Shown: positions 5,896 through 21,194 of the stretch, piece by piece | Layout: each line of letters opens with the position of its first letter | How positions within the stretch are numbered: position 1 is the first letter of the stretch | IMG/VR virus record: IMGVR_UViG_3300036944_000325 | Span: 1 to 30,560 of that record | Direction: 5' to 3' (one strand) | Length of the DNA stretch: 30,560 bases | From: a virus | The notes under the pieces: generated by a model | The model's input: only the letters and a program-made list of their open reading frames with translations | Told to the model about the DNA's origin: nothing | Database searches by the model: none | Position numbers and translations under genes: made by a program

Positions 5896-7851
5896 TTATT
5901 TATATTTTAATGATGCTCTATTCGGCATATCGTTAGGACGAACCGCTTCTTGTCCTTTTGGAAATAATTCATTTGCAACACCGCCTGTTACAACTCTGTC
6001 GTTGTTCAATCCGTCGTTTGGAAGGAAGCGACCTTTCTCTCTTTTGCGTACAAATACTTTTCTGAACCAAGCGTGGCGACAATAGACACCGCCCTTATAT
6101 TTCCAAATATTTATTGTGCTTGAACCGCTCGCTGCAAACTCGCTATTTACTCCGTCATCACCCATTTTTATGATGTCTTCGTAACGGAATAAAGCTCCGT
6201 CTTTTGATAGCGCAACCATTTCTTGACAGAAATCGCGTGTTACAATTTCTCCGTCTTTGTATGTGAAATTCTTTGAGTAGTAGTAACGTACTTTATACAA
6301 TCCTGTGTCTAAAGAATCACTTCTTTCATCGGGGTTTGAATAACCGCGAACGCTCATAAACTCAGTACGATATTTTTCTTCGCCTTCTGGATTAGTTACT
6401 TCTTCGTCAGAAATCAACTCCCATTCTTCTTCGTTGATGTATTCAGCCTTTTCGCGTAGGTGTGCAACCCACGCTTCACCTTCTTCTTTGCTTATCTTAA
6501 CACCCGCATCCTTTTGCTTCGTCTTCGCTACAACTTTTTTTTTTTGAGCGGACAATTTAGCCACCGCGTCGCCACTTGTTTGAAACATTGACTTCGCAAC
6601 CTCAACATCAAGACCTAAGAATTGAACTAAGAATACAATTGCTTGTTCCTGCGTTAGCGTTCCAAGTCCAACCGCTGCAACAATTTCTAAAGCGGATGCG
6701 ATTTGCGCTCCGTTGTAAGTTACGTCGCTCACCTTTTCGCCTGTTGCTGTTGGTGTTTCTGTCACGTCTGTTGAAGGTACGTCTATTACTTCGGTAGGTG
6801 CGTTAGAATCGACTGCAACTCCGTCTTCAAAGATAGAGTTCATCTCTATATTTACGTCGCCTAAAATCGGTGTAAATACTTCTTCGATAATTCGTTGGTA
6901 TGGACGTATTACTTGCGTGTTGAATATCTCTAAACCTACCAACATTTCGTCCTTATTGCTTCCGAATCCTGTTGTGTCGCGTATGCCGTGAATCAATGGA
7001 GACACAACGCGGTGTCCAACCATGATTTGCTTCGCTGTTTCTTCTGATAAAAATTGATATTGCTTGTCTGCGTCCGATAAAGGAAACGATTCAATCTGTG
7101 GAGCGCGAGCAGGATCTTCGTTGAACGTCATTAAGAACTTACCAGCGTTACTTGCACCACTCAAACGTGTTTCCCACTCACGACGAATAGCTTCGCGTTC
7201 TTCTTTCTGAGGAATGCCGTTTAAGAAGTTTATAATGAATGAAGGGAACAAGCCATTCAAAATATTATTGACGTGATAAAGCCCCATTTGATAAGACAAT
7301 TCAACGTAATTCAATGCACCGAAGTAGTCGGGCTTTGGATAGTAAACACTTCCTGCACTCATTCCGTGCGCGTAAATAACTTGACGCGGTTGTTCTTGCG
7401 CAATGGACGGATTGAACGCAGGAATAAATTCGGGTTTACCTCTTTTGCTTCGCGTGTTTGCCCAGTCTTTCGAGTAAAAAATTCCTGTAATGTCGTCTTC
7501 TTCTTTGTCGTATGCAAGGCGACAATTCTCGAAAGGTAGGTGGTTAATTTGTACAACGCGAGTGAAGTCCATTGACCAAATTACTTCGGCTACAAACGCG
7601 CCTTGAAGTTTTAAGTCGAAGGCGATACCTTGCAACGCATTGTCGAGAATTGTACCCGTTCCTTGTCCTTCAATCATATACGCTATTGAGTTAGTCAACG
7701 CGTTATGTATTGGTGAATTGTGAAAGAGATTCAGCAAATAATTTGGGTATAAATTATTAGAACCGTAGTCAATCCAACCCGCGCGATTCTCTTTCTCGAT
7801 CGCTTCAACTGGTTGGTATGCTGATAAGTTAATTGCTTGAATGTTGCTCAT
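5896..7851 (-). CDS. Portal protein with long C-terminal extension
   Basis: A 651-residue protein. Residues about 1-370 read as a portal: an N-terminal segment before the clip and stem (WIDYGSNNLYPNYLLNLF), the LSYQMGLYHVNNILNGLFPSF helix region, and VSPLIHGIRDTTGFGSNKDEM followed by a long helix. The dodecameric portal is the packaging and ejection channel. Residues about 370-440 are Thr/Ala-rich and helical, then a Lys-rich linker leads to a separate C-terminal domain (about 470-651) with DTGLYKVRYYYSKN, IWKYKGGVYCRHAWFRKVF and RPNDMPNRASLKY. I have the impression that this last domain also occurs with portal or MuF-type proteins of other Bacteroidota phages. An A11 run in the linker does not open a useful alternative frame. 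Confidence 0.8.
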   Translation of the reverse strand: MSNIQAINLSAYQPVEAIEKENRAGWIDYGSNNLYPNYLLNLFHNSPIHNALTNSIAYMIEGQGTGTILDNALQGIAFDLKLQGAFVAEVIWSMDFTRVVQINHLPFENCRLAYDKEEDDITGIFYSKDWANTRSKRGKPEFIPAFNPSIAQEQPRQVIYAHGMSAGSVYYPKPDYFGALNYVELSYQMGLYHVNNILNGLFPSFIINFLNGIPQKEEREAIRREWETRLSGASNAGKFLMTFNEDPARAPQIESFPLSDADKQYQFLSEETAKQIMVGHRVVSPLIHGIRDTTGFGSNKDEMLVGLEIFNTQVIRPYQRIIEEVFTPILGDVNIEMNSIFEDGVAVDSNAPTEVIDVPSTDVTETPTATGEKVSDVTYNGAQIASALEIVAAVGLGTLTQEQAIVFLVQFLGLDVEVAKSMFQTSGDAVAKLSAQKKKVVAKTKQKDAGVKISKEEGEAWVAHLREKAEYINEEEWELISDEEVTNPEGEEKYRTEFMSVRGYSNPDERSDSLDTGLYKVRYYYSKNFTYKDGEIVTRDFCQEMVALSKDGALFRYEDIIKMGDDGVNSEFAASGSSTINIWKYKGGVYCRHAWFRKVFVRKREKGRFLPNDGLNNDRVVTGGVANELFPKGQEAVRPNDMPNRASLKYK

Positions 7852-11270: not shown

Positions 11271-13304
11271 TTATCCTCCTAATCTTGATTGGTTTTGAAT
11301 TAATTGTTGTGCTTCTAAATTGCTTGACACTTGCGTTCCAACGACGTACGCTTGCAATGGTGGTTGTTGTTGGTTGGGTTGATTCTGCAAGAAGGCGAAG
11401 TTCGCAGGTGAAGGAGCGTTTGTTCCGCCACCACCACCTACTCCAGTTTCACCACCACCACCTGCGCCTGCAAAGCGACCTATTGCCGTTCCTGCTATTG
11501 TAGCAATGGAAGCCGCAGCCCGAAGTTTAGCACCAATGATTGCAGGTATTTTTATGGATGCTCCACCGTCTGGTGACAAAGACCAAACAGGGTTAGCGTT
11601 GTATGCGCTAATTTCTCGTTGAGTGTTCACAACGACTTGTGCAATGGCTAACGCTTTGTCAAGTGCAAAGGCAATGTCAGCCGCTTTCTTGTTTCTTGCG
11701 AATAGCGTTCCTAACAAGTTGACCGAAGCGGATGCAAGATTGAATTTCGCGTCTGTTAGTGCTTGTTCTGCCGCTAACTTGTCCGCATCAAATTGCTTTT
11801 GTCTTGCAAGTTCGTCCTCTTTTGCTTTTTGATCCGCTGCCTTTTTCTTTTCTTCGTCTGTAAGTTGTTGTTGAAGTGCTAAATCGTCGTATTTTTTGTT
11901 AATCTCAAGTTCTAAAAGACGATATTTTTCAACGATTAAAACCTTATCAGCCTCGTCACCTTCGTATGTTTGAAGTTCAAGTTCTTTTTTCTTTTCTAAA
12001 TCATAAAGTTCGTTAGCTTGCTCGCTTTGATTTGCTTTGATATAATCTTCACGCACTTTAAGTTTTTCGGCTTCAAGGTCTTTTTCAAGTTTTAATTCTT
12101 TAGCTGCTTGAACTGCGTTCGCTTCAAGTTGCTTTTCTCTTTCTTGTTCTTTCTTTTCTCTTTCGCTTTGCGCTGCTGTATTTGCAGCCTTTGTCTTTTC
12201 ACGAATTGCTTTTACTTCTGTTTGAACATTCGCTAAAACTGCCGACGTTGCCTCTCCTTCAAGAAACGCAATTCGTTGAATACTTTCTTCAAGGTCAACA
12301 GCCGCTTTTCCTACTCCTTCTGTTCCATTAAAAAAGTCGCTTATATTTTGGTTGGTTTCTTTGAATAAAGTTTGTTGGTTAAACTTTGCCGCTTCAACAG
12401 CAGCATTGAAATCTTCGGTGCTTAACTTTCCTCTCTTATTTGCAAGTTCTGTTTCTAAGGACAATTTCTTTGCATACTCAGCTTCAAGTAAAGACTTTGC
12501 CGCGTTTGCTTTGGCTTCCGATTTAATGCTTGCAATTAACTTTTCTTTTGCTGCATTTAACGCTTCCGTATCGTTGATGTCTCCGTTGATATTTGAAAAG
12601 TACGCTGGATACATTGTCTCCAAATCTTCCAACGCCTGTCTTCTTTCTTTCTCTGTTAAATTGTTGTCTTTAACTCTATCAGTCAAGACTTCAATTTGCG
12701 TTATCTTTTGCGCTCCTTTAACAAGTTCTTGTTCTGTTGCGTCATTTAATTCGCTTGTAACCTTTGCAAGGTTCTGCTGCTCTTTTGATGTTTGACTTGC
12801 CCACTTCCCAATCTCTTTATAGTTGTAAGCAATAGCAGCCAACGTTCCTGCAATCAAAAAGAATGGATTAGAAACAACCGACATTGCAAGATTTCCCAAA
12901 CCTTTTACCAAACCACCAACCTCATCTTTAATTGTCTTAAAATCAATACGACCAACAGCCACACCCATTCCGCTCAACGCTTGTCCTGCTCCTTTAAGGT
13001 CTAAGTCCATAAGACGTGAACCGAACAAACCAACGTTGTTCGAAAGACCTTCAAAAGCGTTACCTGCGTTGGCACTAATCTCAGCCGAAAGGTCTCCGAT
13101 ATTATCCTTTAACTCAGCGGCTCGAGCAGATGCTTTTTTGAAGGCATCACTCGTTTGATCCATTGTAAGCAACTGCTGATTCAGCGCACGCAACTCAGCC
13201 TTTGCTGAACTAAACCCTGCCGCCGTATTGTCTGCTGCTGCTGCCGTCTGATTAAGAACGGTAACCGCGTTCGTACTTACAACTAAATCTATTGTATTCG
13301 CCAT
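11271..13304 (-). CDS. Tail tape measure protein
   Basis: A 677-residue protein, the only one here with tape-measure character. It has an Ala-rich helical N-terminus (FSSAKAELRALNQQLLTMD), a hydrophobic segment (about 138-160, MSVVSNPFFLIAGTLAAIA), a very long charged coiled coil (about 380-530) and a second small-residue helical region before a Gly-rich stretch (AGAGGGGETGVGGGGG) and a Gln/Asn-rich end. It sets tail length during assembly and enters the cell envelope at ejection. By the usual rule of about 0.15 nm per residue the tail would be roughly 100 nm. It is followed by the head genes, so tail genes are transcribed before head genes, opposite to lambda. Confidence 0.8.
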   Translation of the reverse strand: MANTIDLVVSTNAVTVLNQTAAAADNTAAGFSSAKAELRALNQQLLTMDQTSDAFKKASARAAELKDNIGDLSAEISANAGNAFEGLSNNVGLFGSRLMDLDLKGAGQALSGMGVAVGRIDFKTIKDEVGGLVKGLGNLAMSVVSNPFFLIAGTLAAIAYNYKEIGKWASQTSKEQQNLAKVTSELNDATEQELVKGAQKITQIEVLTDRVKDNNLTEKERRQALEDLETMYPAYFSNINGDINDTEALNAAKEKLIASIKSEAKANAAKSLLEAEYAKKLSLETELANKRGKLSTEDFNAAVEAAKFNQQTLFKETNQNISDFFNGTEGVGKAAVDLEESIQRIAFLEGEATSAVLANVQTEVKAIREKTKAANTAAQSEREKKEQEREKQLEANAVQAAKELKLEKDLEAEKLKVREDYIKANQSEQANELYDLEKKKELELQTYEGDEADKVLIVEKYRLLELEINKKYDDLALQQQLTDEEKKKAADQKAKEDELARQKQFDADKLAAEQALTDAKFNLASASVNLLGTLFARNKKAADIAFALDKALAIAQVVVNTQREISAYNANPVWSLSPDGGASIKIPAIIGAKLRAAASIATIAGTAIGRFAGAGGGGETGVGGGGGTNAPSPANFAFLQNQPNQQQPPLQAYVVGTQVSSNLEAQQLIQNQSRLGG

Positions 13305-18362: not shown

Positions 18363-20471
18363 TTAAACTATTTTTAATGTTCCTGCATCGTTCCACAAAG
18401 CACCCGTTGGAAGGCCTGCGCTTGAAGTTGGAAGGTTACCGAATACTATTCGACCTCTCGTTGTTTCAATTGCTCTAAAATCAGTTGCTGAAGTAAGTGT
18501 TGGTGCAATGTATAATCCACGAGTTATTCCATTAGCAGTTCCAGTTTGATTGATTATTGGTGTTGCTCTGAATGATGAAAAATCAGCATTTCCACTTGTT
18601 TGCGTCCAAGTGATTGCGTCTGAAAAACTTGTTCTTGAACCACTTGTTACCAATACAGAACCACCACCACTTGCAAAAATAAATGTTTGACCATAAATAA
18701 ATGGCGAACCATTATTATTAAAAAATCCACCATAAAAACCACTACCAGTATTTTGAGTAATTATAACATTTCCACTTGCATTTATTGTGGTTGTTGTTAA
18801 TCCACTTACTCTGGTTGTTCCATTGACATCCAACTTGAAACCAGCATCTGTTGTTCCACCAATAATAATATTTCCAGTTGTTGGTGCAACTCTAAAATAA
18901 TATGTAGAAAATGCAGTATTTGTAATACTAAAATGTCTATTACTACCAACCACATCAACTCCAAAAAATGCGTTTTGAAAAGATGTAATAGTATTATTGC
19001 TAAATTGAAAACCAGTTCCACCACCAGTTCCTATTTGTAATGCGTTTGCAAATCGAACATCACCACCTTGCACTTCCAATCTAAATGAAGGTGAAGCCGT
19101 TCCAATTCCTAATCTTGAATTAGTATTGTCCCAAAATAGCGAACCCGATTGCTGTAACACATTGCCTGTTCCTTCAAAAAGAATTCTTCCAACAGTTCCG
19201 CTTGTTATTGGTGTAGTGCCTACCGTTAACCCTGTCGCTATCGTGAATGTTCTATCTGCTGAAAGGTCTTGCGTTGTGCCGTTAATTGTCAGCGTTCGCG
19301 TTGAAGGAACTTTTGCATTCCACGTTGCAGCAGATGCTATGTAAGCGTCAGCCAAGTCAGTAGTCAAATGTAGTTCTGACAATTGAGTAACGCCACCTGT
19401 TACGCTCATTGCGTTACCGCTGCCGCTTGTCTTGTTAACCGTTAACGCTTCACCTGCGCCACCCTTAGTGATTGAAGCGGCAACACCGCTACCACTTGAA
19501 TGGTTGATGACTAAATCTTTCGCGCTTAACGTGTGCGTTCCTAAATCAACGTTTTGCGTCGCTCCTGTGTATGGAACGTAACCCGTTAATGAAGGTAAAT
19601 CTTGCGCTGTAATAAATGGGTTAACACCGTCCGCCCCGTCGTTGGTTAGGTCGCTTGTTAGCGTTGGTATTGTCGGAAGGTTTGAAAGGTCATTGTAATC
19701 ATTCGAGAAACCAACCGCGCTGATGCTCGTGATGTCAGCCTTCAAAAGTATTTCTTCTTCGAGTGCGTCAATGGCTGCTTCGATGTCTATAATCGTTTGA
19801 CAATCTCCAATCGTTTCACACGTCAACCCGATATTATCCGTCGTTAAATACCAACCGCGCACCCCTTCGTCATTCGTTCCGTAGTAGTAATTAGGCGAAG
19901 GTTCTGCTTCGTCGTTTACAAGCGAAACGTTCCCGTTCTCGTCGCGATTGATTGAATCGATGAAGGTCAAAATTGATCCTGTGCCACCTGTCGAAGATTC
20001 GAACATATCGTTCCATTCAGCAGGAATGCTGCAAGCGTCCCAATAATAAGGAACAAGTAAATCTAAACTAATCGTCCAACCTGTTAGCGTATGTTGAAAC
20101 TCTTCGAGGAATGGTTCTAACGAAACGTTGTTGACAGTAATCAAGTCACCAAACAAAACTCGGTGGTTTGTTATCTCAGCAACCAAATCTTCTGCGATTC
20201 GTTGAAGGTCTGACAACACCTCGCGTTGGTACTCTGGTTTGTCTTCTTTGTCTCGTGGCATATCCGCAAGGACAATCTGAAAAGAGAACGTCTTCATACC
20301 TTTCGCGTAAGTAACGTTCGAAGGCACAACGTGCATGAATGGATATTCGCCAAACTTTTCAAGGTCTGAAACCTCAATCTGTCCGTGAGAGAATCGTTTA
20401 AGAATGAAATGTCCAGAGGCGAATGCGTGGAATCTATCGATGAGAGCGTTGTAGCTTTGTACGTTCGACAT
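18363..20471 (-). CDS. Tail fibre / receptor-binding protein with N-terminal tail-attachment domain
   Basis: A 702-residue protein. Residues about 1-160 (MSNVQSYNALIDRFHAFASG, FSHGQIEVSDLEKF, YAKGMKTFSFQIVLADMPRD, YYWDACSIPAEW) look like a separate virion attachment or tail-terminator type domain. Residues about 230-250 form a short coiled coil (IDIEAAIDALEEEILLKADI). After that come repeated fibre modules: YVPYTGATQNVDLGTHTLSA, STRTLTINGTTQDLSADRTF and RLGIGTASPSFRLEVQGG, ending LPTGALWNDAGTLKIV. No peptidase S74 chaperone is seen at the end. The DNA for residues about 447-664 is markedly more AT-rich than the rest. The start is the ATG at 20471; 20483 is TTG. It overlaps the chaperone frameshift extension. 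Confidence 0.75.
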   Translation of the reverse strand: MSNVQSYNALIDRFHAFASGHFILKRFSHGQIEVSDLEKFGEYPFMHVVPSNVTYAKGMKTFSFQIVLADMPRDKEDKPEYQREVLSDLQRIAEDLVAEITNHRVLFGDLITVNNVSLEPFLEEFQHTLTGWTISLDLLVPYYWDACSIPAEWNDMFESSTGGTGSILTFIDSINRDENGNVSLVNDEAEPSPNYYYGTNDEGVRGWYLTTDNIGLTCETIGDCQTIIDIEAAIDALEEEILLKADITSISAVGFSNDYNDLSNLPTIPTLTSDLTNDGADGVNPFITAQDLPSLTGYVPYTGATQNVDLGTHTLSAKDLVINHSSGSGVAASITKGGAGEALTVNKTSGSGNAMSVTGGVTQLSELHLTTDLADAYIASAATWNAKVPSTRTLTINGTTQDLSADRTFTIATGLTVGTTPITSGTVGRILFEGTGNVLQQSGSLFWDNTNSRLGIGTASPSFRLEVQGGDVRFANALQIGTGGGTGFQFSNNTITSFQNAFFGVDVVGSNRHFSITNTAFSTYYFRVAPTTGNIIIGGTTDAGFKLDVNGTTRVSGLTTTTINASGNVIITQNTGSGFYGGFFNNNGSPFIYGQTFIFASGGGSVLVTSGSRTSFSDAITWTQTSGNADFSSFRATPIINQTGTANGITRGLYIAPTLTSATDFRAIETTRGRIVFGNLPTSSAGLPTGALWNDAGTLKIV

Positions 20472-21194
20472 AGTTATAGTCAATTAGGTAAGTCATATAT
20501 GTAAATATCTCCCAAGCGCTTTTTTCCGTAATTGCGTCCAACTTTGTTATGTCGCGCCCGCACGCTTCCATAAAAAGGTGATACCAACCGTAGCGTCCTA
20601 AGACTTGGTTTAGGTTGTCTCGGTCTTCAATTGCTCCGTCAACTCCTGCGTCAACTTCTTCACCTCGTTCTCCAAATAATCGAGCGAAGTGTTGCTTAGT
20701 TCGCTGAGCAAAGTCGAAAAAAAAAGCATCGCACCGTTGAATTGTTCAAGCGTCATCTGTTCAACATAGCCTTCAACAAGCTCTCTATTTTGCTTGCTGT
20801 GTGGAATGATTGTGTACTTTGAACCAACGCGTTTGTCGATAGGTCTGTAAAGCGTCCCCATGATTTTGACCATGTTGGTTGACACGTCCGAAGCCCACGT
20901 TGAAATATCCGCATACTCACCCATTGAAATTGAGTAAAGGTCTGGAATAAAACCAAAGTCTTTGTCTTTGATCGTAATTGTTTCAAAGAACTTCGCGCTC
21001 TCATTCAACAACGTTCCTTCAAATGCTGCGAGTAGTGTCGGCAAGTGTTGGAAAGGAATCTGTTCCGCCTGTTCCTTCAGTAGGTTACTAATGCTAACCA
21101 ACTTGTCTATGTCACTCTTCGCGTTGTGATAGTCAACGTATTGCTTGACGCTAATCGAAGAATAGTCAGCTGGTATGCTTACTTTGATGCTCAT
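20434..21194 (-). CDS. Tail assembly chaperone, predicted -1 frameshift product
   Basis: Ribosomes that slip back one base on the T9 run (20717-20725) would leave the 0 frame after 159 codons and read 94 more codons to the TAG at 20434-20436, giving a 253-residue protein. The -1 frame is open from the slip site to that stop and reads like protein in its last part (NLNQVLGRYGWYHLFMEACG, then DITKLDAITEKSAWEIFTY). The slippery heptamer T TTT TTT is in the correct phase. This matches the gpG/gpGT arrangement of long-tailed phages, where the shifted form recruits tail tube protein to the tape measure. The extension overlaps the tail fibre start by 38 bases. A separate start at the internal ATG of FMEACG is possible but would lose the best-looking part. 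Confidence 0.65.
20610..21194 (-). CDS. Tail assembly chaperone, unshifted form
   Basis: The 194-residue 0-frame product starts MSIKVSIPADYSSISVKQYV. Predicted mostly helical: KSDIDKLVSISNLLKEQAEQ, then YSISMGEYADISTWASDVST, then MTLEQFNGAMLFFSTLLSEL, with a coiled-coil C-terminus (LENEVKKLTQELTEQLK). Size and position before the tail genes fit a tail assembly chaperone that is not part of the finished virion. It shares its first 159 residues with the frameshift product. The gene starts 42 bases after the small CxxC protein gene. The sequence has no motif that proves the role by itself; the frameshift site is the main argument. Confidence 0.6.
   Translation of the reverse strand: MSIKVSIPADYSSISVKQYVDYHNAKSDIDKLVSISNLLKEQAEQIPFQHLPTLLAAFEGTLLNESAKFFETITIKDKDFGFIPDLYSISMGEYADISTWASDVSTNMVKIMGTLYRPIDKRVGSKYTIIPHSKQNRELVEGYVEQMTLEQFNGAMLFFSTLLSELSNTSLDYLENEVKKLTQELTEQLKTETT
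20717..20726 (-). other. Slippery sequence for -1 ribosomal frameshift
   Basis: On the leftward strand the 0-frame codons read CTT TTT TTT TCG; the run of nine T includes T TTT TTT in the phase needed for a tandem -1 slip. The -1 frame is open for 95 codons (including stop) after the slip, while the 0 frame ends at 20610. Confidence 0.65.

Follow-up and report, generated by a model that had tools for sequence, protein, structure and literature searches.

Does the single long run of thymines in this phage DNA make one gene encode two proteins? The run, of nine T (T9), lies on the minus strand of the window, the whole 30,560-base IMG/VR virus record analysed here, at 20717..20725. It falls inside an open reading frame of 194 codons (20610..21194, minus strand), whose product, here called G, is supported by the ORF list, by relatives in hundreds of viral contigs and by a match in PHROGs to phrog_32199 (E 6.5e-14). 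Codons 157-160 of this frame read CTT TTT TTT TCG, in the phase CTT|TTT|TTT|TCG, with a -1 heptamer, T_TTT_TTT, at 20724-20718; no other T run on the minus strand of the window reaches eight. An earlier note on this DNA had proposed a -1 shift at this place, and the geometry it described was recovered on recomputation: the run has the claimed position and phase, and no stop interrupts the -1 frame between 20745, directly after an upstream stop, and a TAG at 20434 beyond the slip. Read from the codon at 20718, the extension, called T (20434..20718, minus strand; recognised by its pN/pS and a [WY]GWY motif), comprises 94 residues plus the stop and begins FDFAQRTKQHF...NLNQVLGRYGWYHLFMEACG... Joined to residues 1-159 of G, it gives a G-T fusion of 253 residues, the same total as claimed before, and its last 38 bases overlap the next gene (18363..20471, minus strand, ATG at 20471). 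No ORF of at least 70 aa starting with ATG, GTG or TTG covers the extension in the window; hence, ordinary ORF calling misses it, as the note had stated. At the composition of the window, a 94-codon open frame arises by chance with P about 0.005. The length of the frame alone is modest evidence; judged by its conservation, the -1 frame is far beyond chance.

This conservation was followed in three samples of loci picked regardless of the T run. The first contains 80 close relatives with 87-98% identity: all 80 have exactly T9 in the same phase, and in all of them the -1 frame is open to its stop or, in a few cases, to the contig end. The second, 62 usable loci from a search with Gp40 of phage P12024L, lies mostly at 25-33% protein identity; T9 is found in 61 and T10 in one, with the -1 frame open (four loci end at contig ends). 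The third came from a search that ignored the T run and used as query the extension from a distant group; it has T9 in 50 of 80 loci and T10 in 30. G is one frame off from the extension at every one of these 80 loci. In total, T9 or T10 is present in 222/222 loci, and neither T7 nor T8 was seen among them; shared descent links the three samples (80, 62 and 80 loci), so their counts do not represent independent events. The collection contains at least 571 extension-related stretches, and relatives sharing about 25-33% protein identity keep the [WY]GWY motif. A scan for C+T9 with GGNTGGTAYCA downstream of it placed 225 matches in the -1 phase vs. 3 and 3 in the other phases. The C+T8 scan returned 0 matches, with a motif stricter than that of the T9 scans, and its count is not strictly comparable with theirs.

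Substitution patterns within the window clade point in the same direction. The G part has a pN/pS of 0.116. For extension codons 40-82, past the usual 0-frame stop, the ratio is 0.078 in the -1 frame; the two remaining frames have 2.8 and 2.3 and also contain many stops. On this sequence comparison, strong purifying selection acts on the -1 frame past the 0-frame stop. Codons 1-35 form the overlap, in which both frames are read, and the values there (0.82 for the -1 frame, 0.23 for the 0 frame) are not decisive. Both Phe codons of the slip site are always TTT in this clade, and TTC accounts for 249/359 (69%) of the remaining Phe codons in G. The invariant T9 and its phase, the purifying selection on the -1 frame and the preservation of the extension in very distant phages strongly support the predicted shift; on the compared sequences, a programmed shift into the -1 frame is nearly certain.

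Two cultured phages carry the same arrangement. A homologue of G with 31% identity is present in the Nonlabens (Persicivirga) phages P12024L and P12024S. Gene 40 of P12024L contains CTT TTT TTT TAT, a T9 in the phase of the window, and its -1 frame reads LSFRERLRDLYPELYTTSSRQQGSDLMEGFSLKWGWYHTF... to a stop. P12024L gp40/gp41 thus resemble the locus of the window in their homologous G, their T9 in phase and a -1 extension with a GWYH motif. Unlike in the reading given here, two hypothetical genes without a frameshift are annotated in both phages, and the second starts inside the extension. PHROGs, likewise, lists the pair as two unknown families, phrog_32199 and phrog_38404. The extension alone had no tblastn match in INPHARED, and the isolates were linked through G instead. 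Gp41 of P12024L (JQ823123 24473-24640) covers the C-terminal portion of the -1 extension, and Gp39 of P12024S (NC_018271 23663-23830) has the same length and place; hence, both records are probably misannotated. Phages P12024S and P12024L infect Persicivirga. A first scan of genome contigs gave no match; in the five MAG contigs returned by a second one, the label is Bacteroidetes or Flavobacteria in four and Epsilonproteobacteria in one. From the host of the two isolates and from these four labels, a Bacteroidota host is likely for the phage of the window.

In the mechanism put forward here, most ribosomes would stay in the 0 frame and produce G (194 aa). A minority would slip back by one base on T_TTT_TTT, with both Phe tRNAs re-pairing with UUU, and produce G-T (253 aa). 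Following the model of phage lambda, both proteins would be tail assembly chaperones: G would act on the tape measure protein, and G-T would recruit the tube protein. As a whole, this combination of a minority -1 slip by the ribosome with a chaperone role is tentative; the ribosomal nature and the minority frequency of the shift are what we infer.

Other explanations of the out-of-frame extension have to be compared with a programmed shift. The annotation of gene 41 in P12024L, from an ATG inside the extension, would make the extension an independent gene initiated at its own start codon. This is very unlikely, as selection and conservation already cover the stretch from the slip to that ATG. 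Moreover, in 209/246 distinct sequences, the stretch that separates the slip from the preceding stop contains no start codon, and only 8/246 have an ATG between the slip and the motif; internal initiation was rejected on these grounds. Homopolymer runs are also error-prone, and an indel introduced by sequencing or assembly could have split one continuous gene. The same out-of-frame relation recurs in hundreds of contigs and in the isolates P12024S and P12024L. The T10 versions in the extension-search sample keep it too, and not one of the 80 loci there has an in-frame G-T fusion. An assembly error, rejected accordingly, has hardly any probability left. RNA polymerase, rather than the ribosome, is the more serious rival: by adding one U (or dropping two) on T9, it would produce a part of the mRNA that encodes G-T, and the insertion of a single U yields an identical protein of 253 residues. 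Slippage of bacterial RNA polymerases occurs at homopolymers of nine A or T (PMC5009743), and the run here is T9 or longer at every locus, with the C+T8 scan empty. No conserved downstream stimulatory RNA structure was found in the window clade by pseudoknot-free folding (mean z -0.5 to 0.4). It is the lack of both a shorter run and such a structure near T9 that gives transcriptional slippage its weight, and the portal gene of the same phages also keeps a run, of eleven A. Long A or T homopolymers giving products in two frames are known from Shigella mxiE and Thermus dnaX (PMC5009743), although these are bacterial, unrelated genes, and polymerase slippage on the T9 studied here is putative.

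Downstream stimulatory structures are common at -1 sites but not obligatory. T_TTT_TTT is, by itself, a full -1 heptamer (X XXY YYZ), conserved in the 0-frame phase. The amino acids encoded there may account for the outer T's of the run: in relatives, the slip is always preceded by an XTT codon and followed by TAY, TCN, TTG or TGG, thus always by a codon starting with T. As these flanking codons can explain the outer T's, selection on the length of the run itself is not proven. Furthermore, the tail chaperone shifts described in PMC5009743 are ribosomal. On balance, slippage of the ribosome is somewhat favored, and slippage of the polymerase is possible but rather doubtful. From the earlier note, the -1 slip at T TTT TTT stands as far as the conserved heptamer in phase is concerned, with the ribosome as its somewhat favored agent. 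The G/T family is a case on which ribosomal and transcriptional slippage can be told apart.

The genes around the slip site are kept in one order and on one strand in relatives: the large terminase (in most), G/T, a gene of a ~155-aa family, a gene of ~186 aa, two larger genes, a tape-measure-like gene and a protease. In the window, capsid-type genes follow the protease, and the terminase gene lies elsewhere, on the plus strand. The tape-measure-like protein of the window (677 aa; 11271..13304, minus strand) matches phrog_1506 with E 1.8e-6 and is encoded about 7.4 kb downstream of the slip; in P12024L, the tape measure call is phrog_9483, and the best tape-measure matches of relatives lie 4.4-9.5 kb downstream. 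The G/T gene is, hence, on the same strand as the tape measure gene, several kb upstream and not adjacent to it. The overlapped next gene had been called a tail fibre gene in the earlier note, a label that holds partly, as its first ~150 residues are homologous to the separate ~155-aa gene of relatives. A divergent locus adjoining a terminase gene (L292, near position 1438) has T9 in a different phase, with the first T from an Ala codon; it was found by the T9 pattern and is, thus, a biased example.

In phage lambda, one gene gives a short product, gpG, and a -1 extended product, gpGT (PMC5009743). By sequence comparison, the gene of the window is likewise predicted to encode a short and a -1 extended product. 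Lambda gpG/gpGT and HK97 gp13/gp14, for which the -1 frameshift is noted in the HK97 record, share with it this two-product form and a place within a run of tail genes. In contrast to the G/T gene, those of lambda and HK97 directly precede the tape measure gene, and their products have no detectable sequence similarity with G or T. No known chaperone family in Pfam, PHROGs or NCBIfam matched G/T, and hhalign gave no alignment with the lambda and HK97 proteins. Tail assembly chaperones diverge beyond recognition, and as such proteins vary so widely, the missing match is weak evidence against this role. Alternatively, the shift is real, but the two products would have a role in a different late step, e.g., together with the terminase or at the tail end. 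This would suit the lack of chaperone homology as well as the position of the gene, which in most relatives directly follows the large terminase and precedes the tape measure gene by several kb. However, the gene heads a run of tail-type genes, and the sizes and two-product form of G and G-T fit gpG/gpGT, so that this alternative is judged unlikely. The chaperone identity claimed by the earlier note, thus, retains its G/GT-like architecture among tail genes, but has no sequence match, no significant PDB fold match and no place beside the tape measure gene. From a two-product gene of this type at the head of a conserved run of tail genes, a function of G and G-T as tail assembly chaperones is reasonably probable.

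Structure prediction gave a good model for G (pLDDT 88) and a helical, less certain one for T (pLDDT 79). The G model had no significant match in the fold search of the PDB (best E 1.8) or with VIA-align (best Z 3.2), and sequence profiles against the PDB gave nothing convincing. In BFVD, 36 proteins matched the G model at E <=1e-3, including one of P12024S, and all the named ones are uncharacterised. Five proteins of 241-267 aa match both models (A0A516L611, A0A6J5N0W0, A0A6J5SVK3, A0A6J5MY57 and A0A516L5A8). Their E-values for the T model are weak (0.005-0.06), and these model matches are hints of single-ORF G-T fusions elsewhere. A weak structural match to G (E 1e-3) was also observed for Gp10 (191 aa) of Flavobacterium phage 6H (NC_021867; 10927-10044, minus strand). 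There, an unannotated frame of 105 codons (10361-10044) follows gp10 in the -1 phase, is closed by a stop just upstream and lacks a T run like that of the window.

A programmed frameshift in a gene of the tail region is of a known kind. The G/T gene family itself appears to be unannotated: the longer G-T product is annotated in none of the databases searched, and the literature search found no published report of this site. This family is distinguished by its invariably long T run and by its separation from the tape measure gene. It occurs in at least hundreds of aquatic phage sequences, in which the second half of the protein is missing from the annotation examined, and its presence in the cultured phages P12024S and P12024L makes it testable there. 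Should G and G-T prove to be chaperones, frameshifting would control tail assembly also in phages with another gene order and without a recognisable chaperone.

The run of eleven A (A11) belongs to the portal gene of the window (651 aa; 7851-5896, minus strand), which matches phrog_33693 at residues 68-365. On the sense strand, the run reads CAA AAA AAA AAA GT (6535-6545) and follows codon 435 of 651, just after the portal domain. The longest A run in the portal gene of relatives is A11 in 74/80, A10 in 5/80 and A9 in 1/80. The codons of the run are three AAA in 72 of 76 usable loci and AAA AAA AAG in the remaining four, and AAG makes up 33% of the other Lys codons. A slip on A11 would cut the 651-aa portal protein to a core of about 440-450 aa; judged from these sequences, the run is a possible second programmed slippage site and is to be taken as a lead rather than a result. 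It seems improbable that this large, aquatic, probably Bacteroidota-infecting phage family sets the ratio of two tail proteins by RNA polymerase slippage on an obligatory run of at least nine T, maybe with the A11 of the portal gene as a second site. If true, polymerase slippage and not ribosomal frameshifting would set the ratio of two tail-assembly proteins, and slippage on A11 may yield short and long portal proteins. In one portal-like gene (L620), the run is A10; its 0 frame is closed after one codon and its -1 frame stays open over 211 codons, which would reflect a sequencing indel or, alternatively, a form of the gene depending on slippage.
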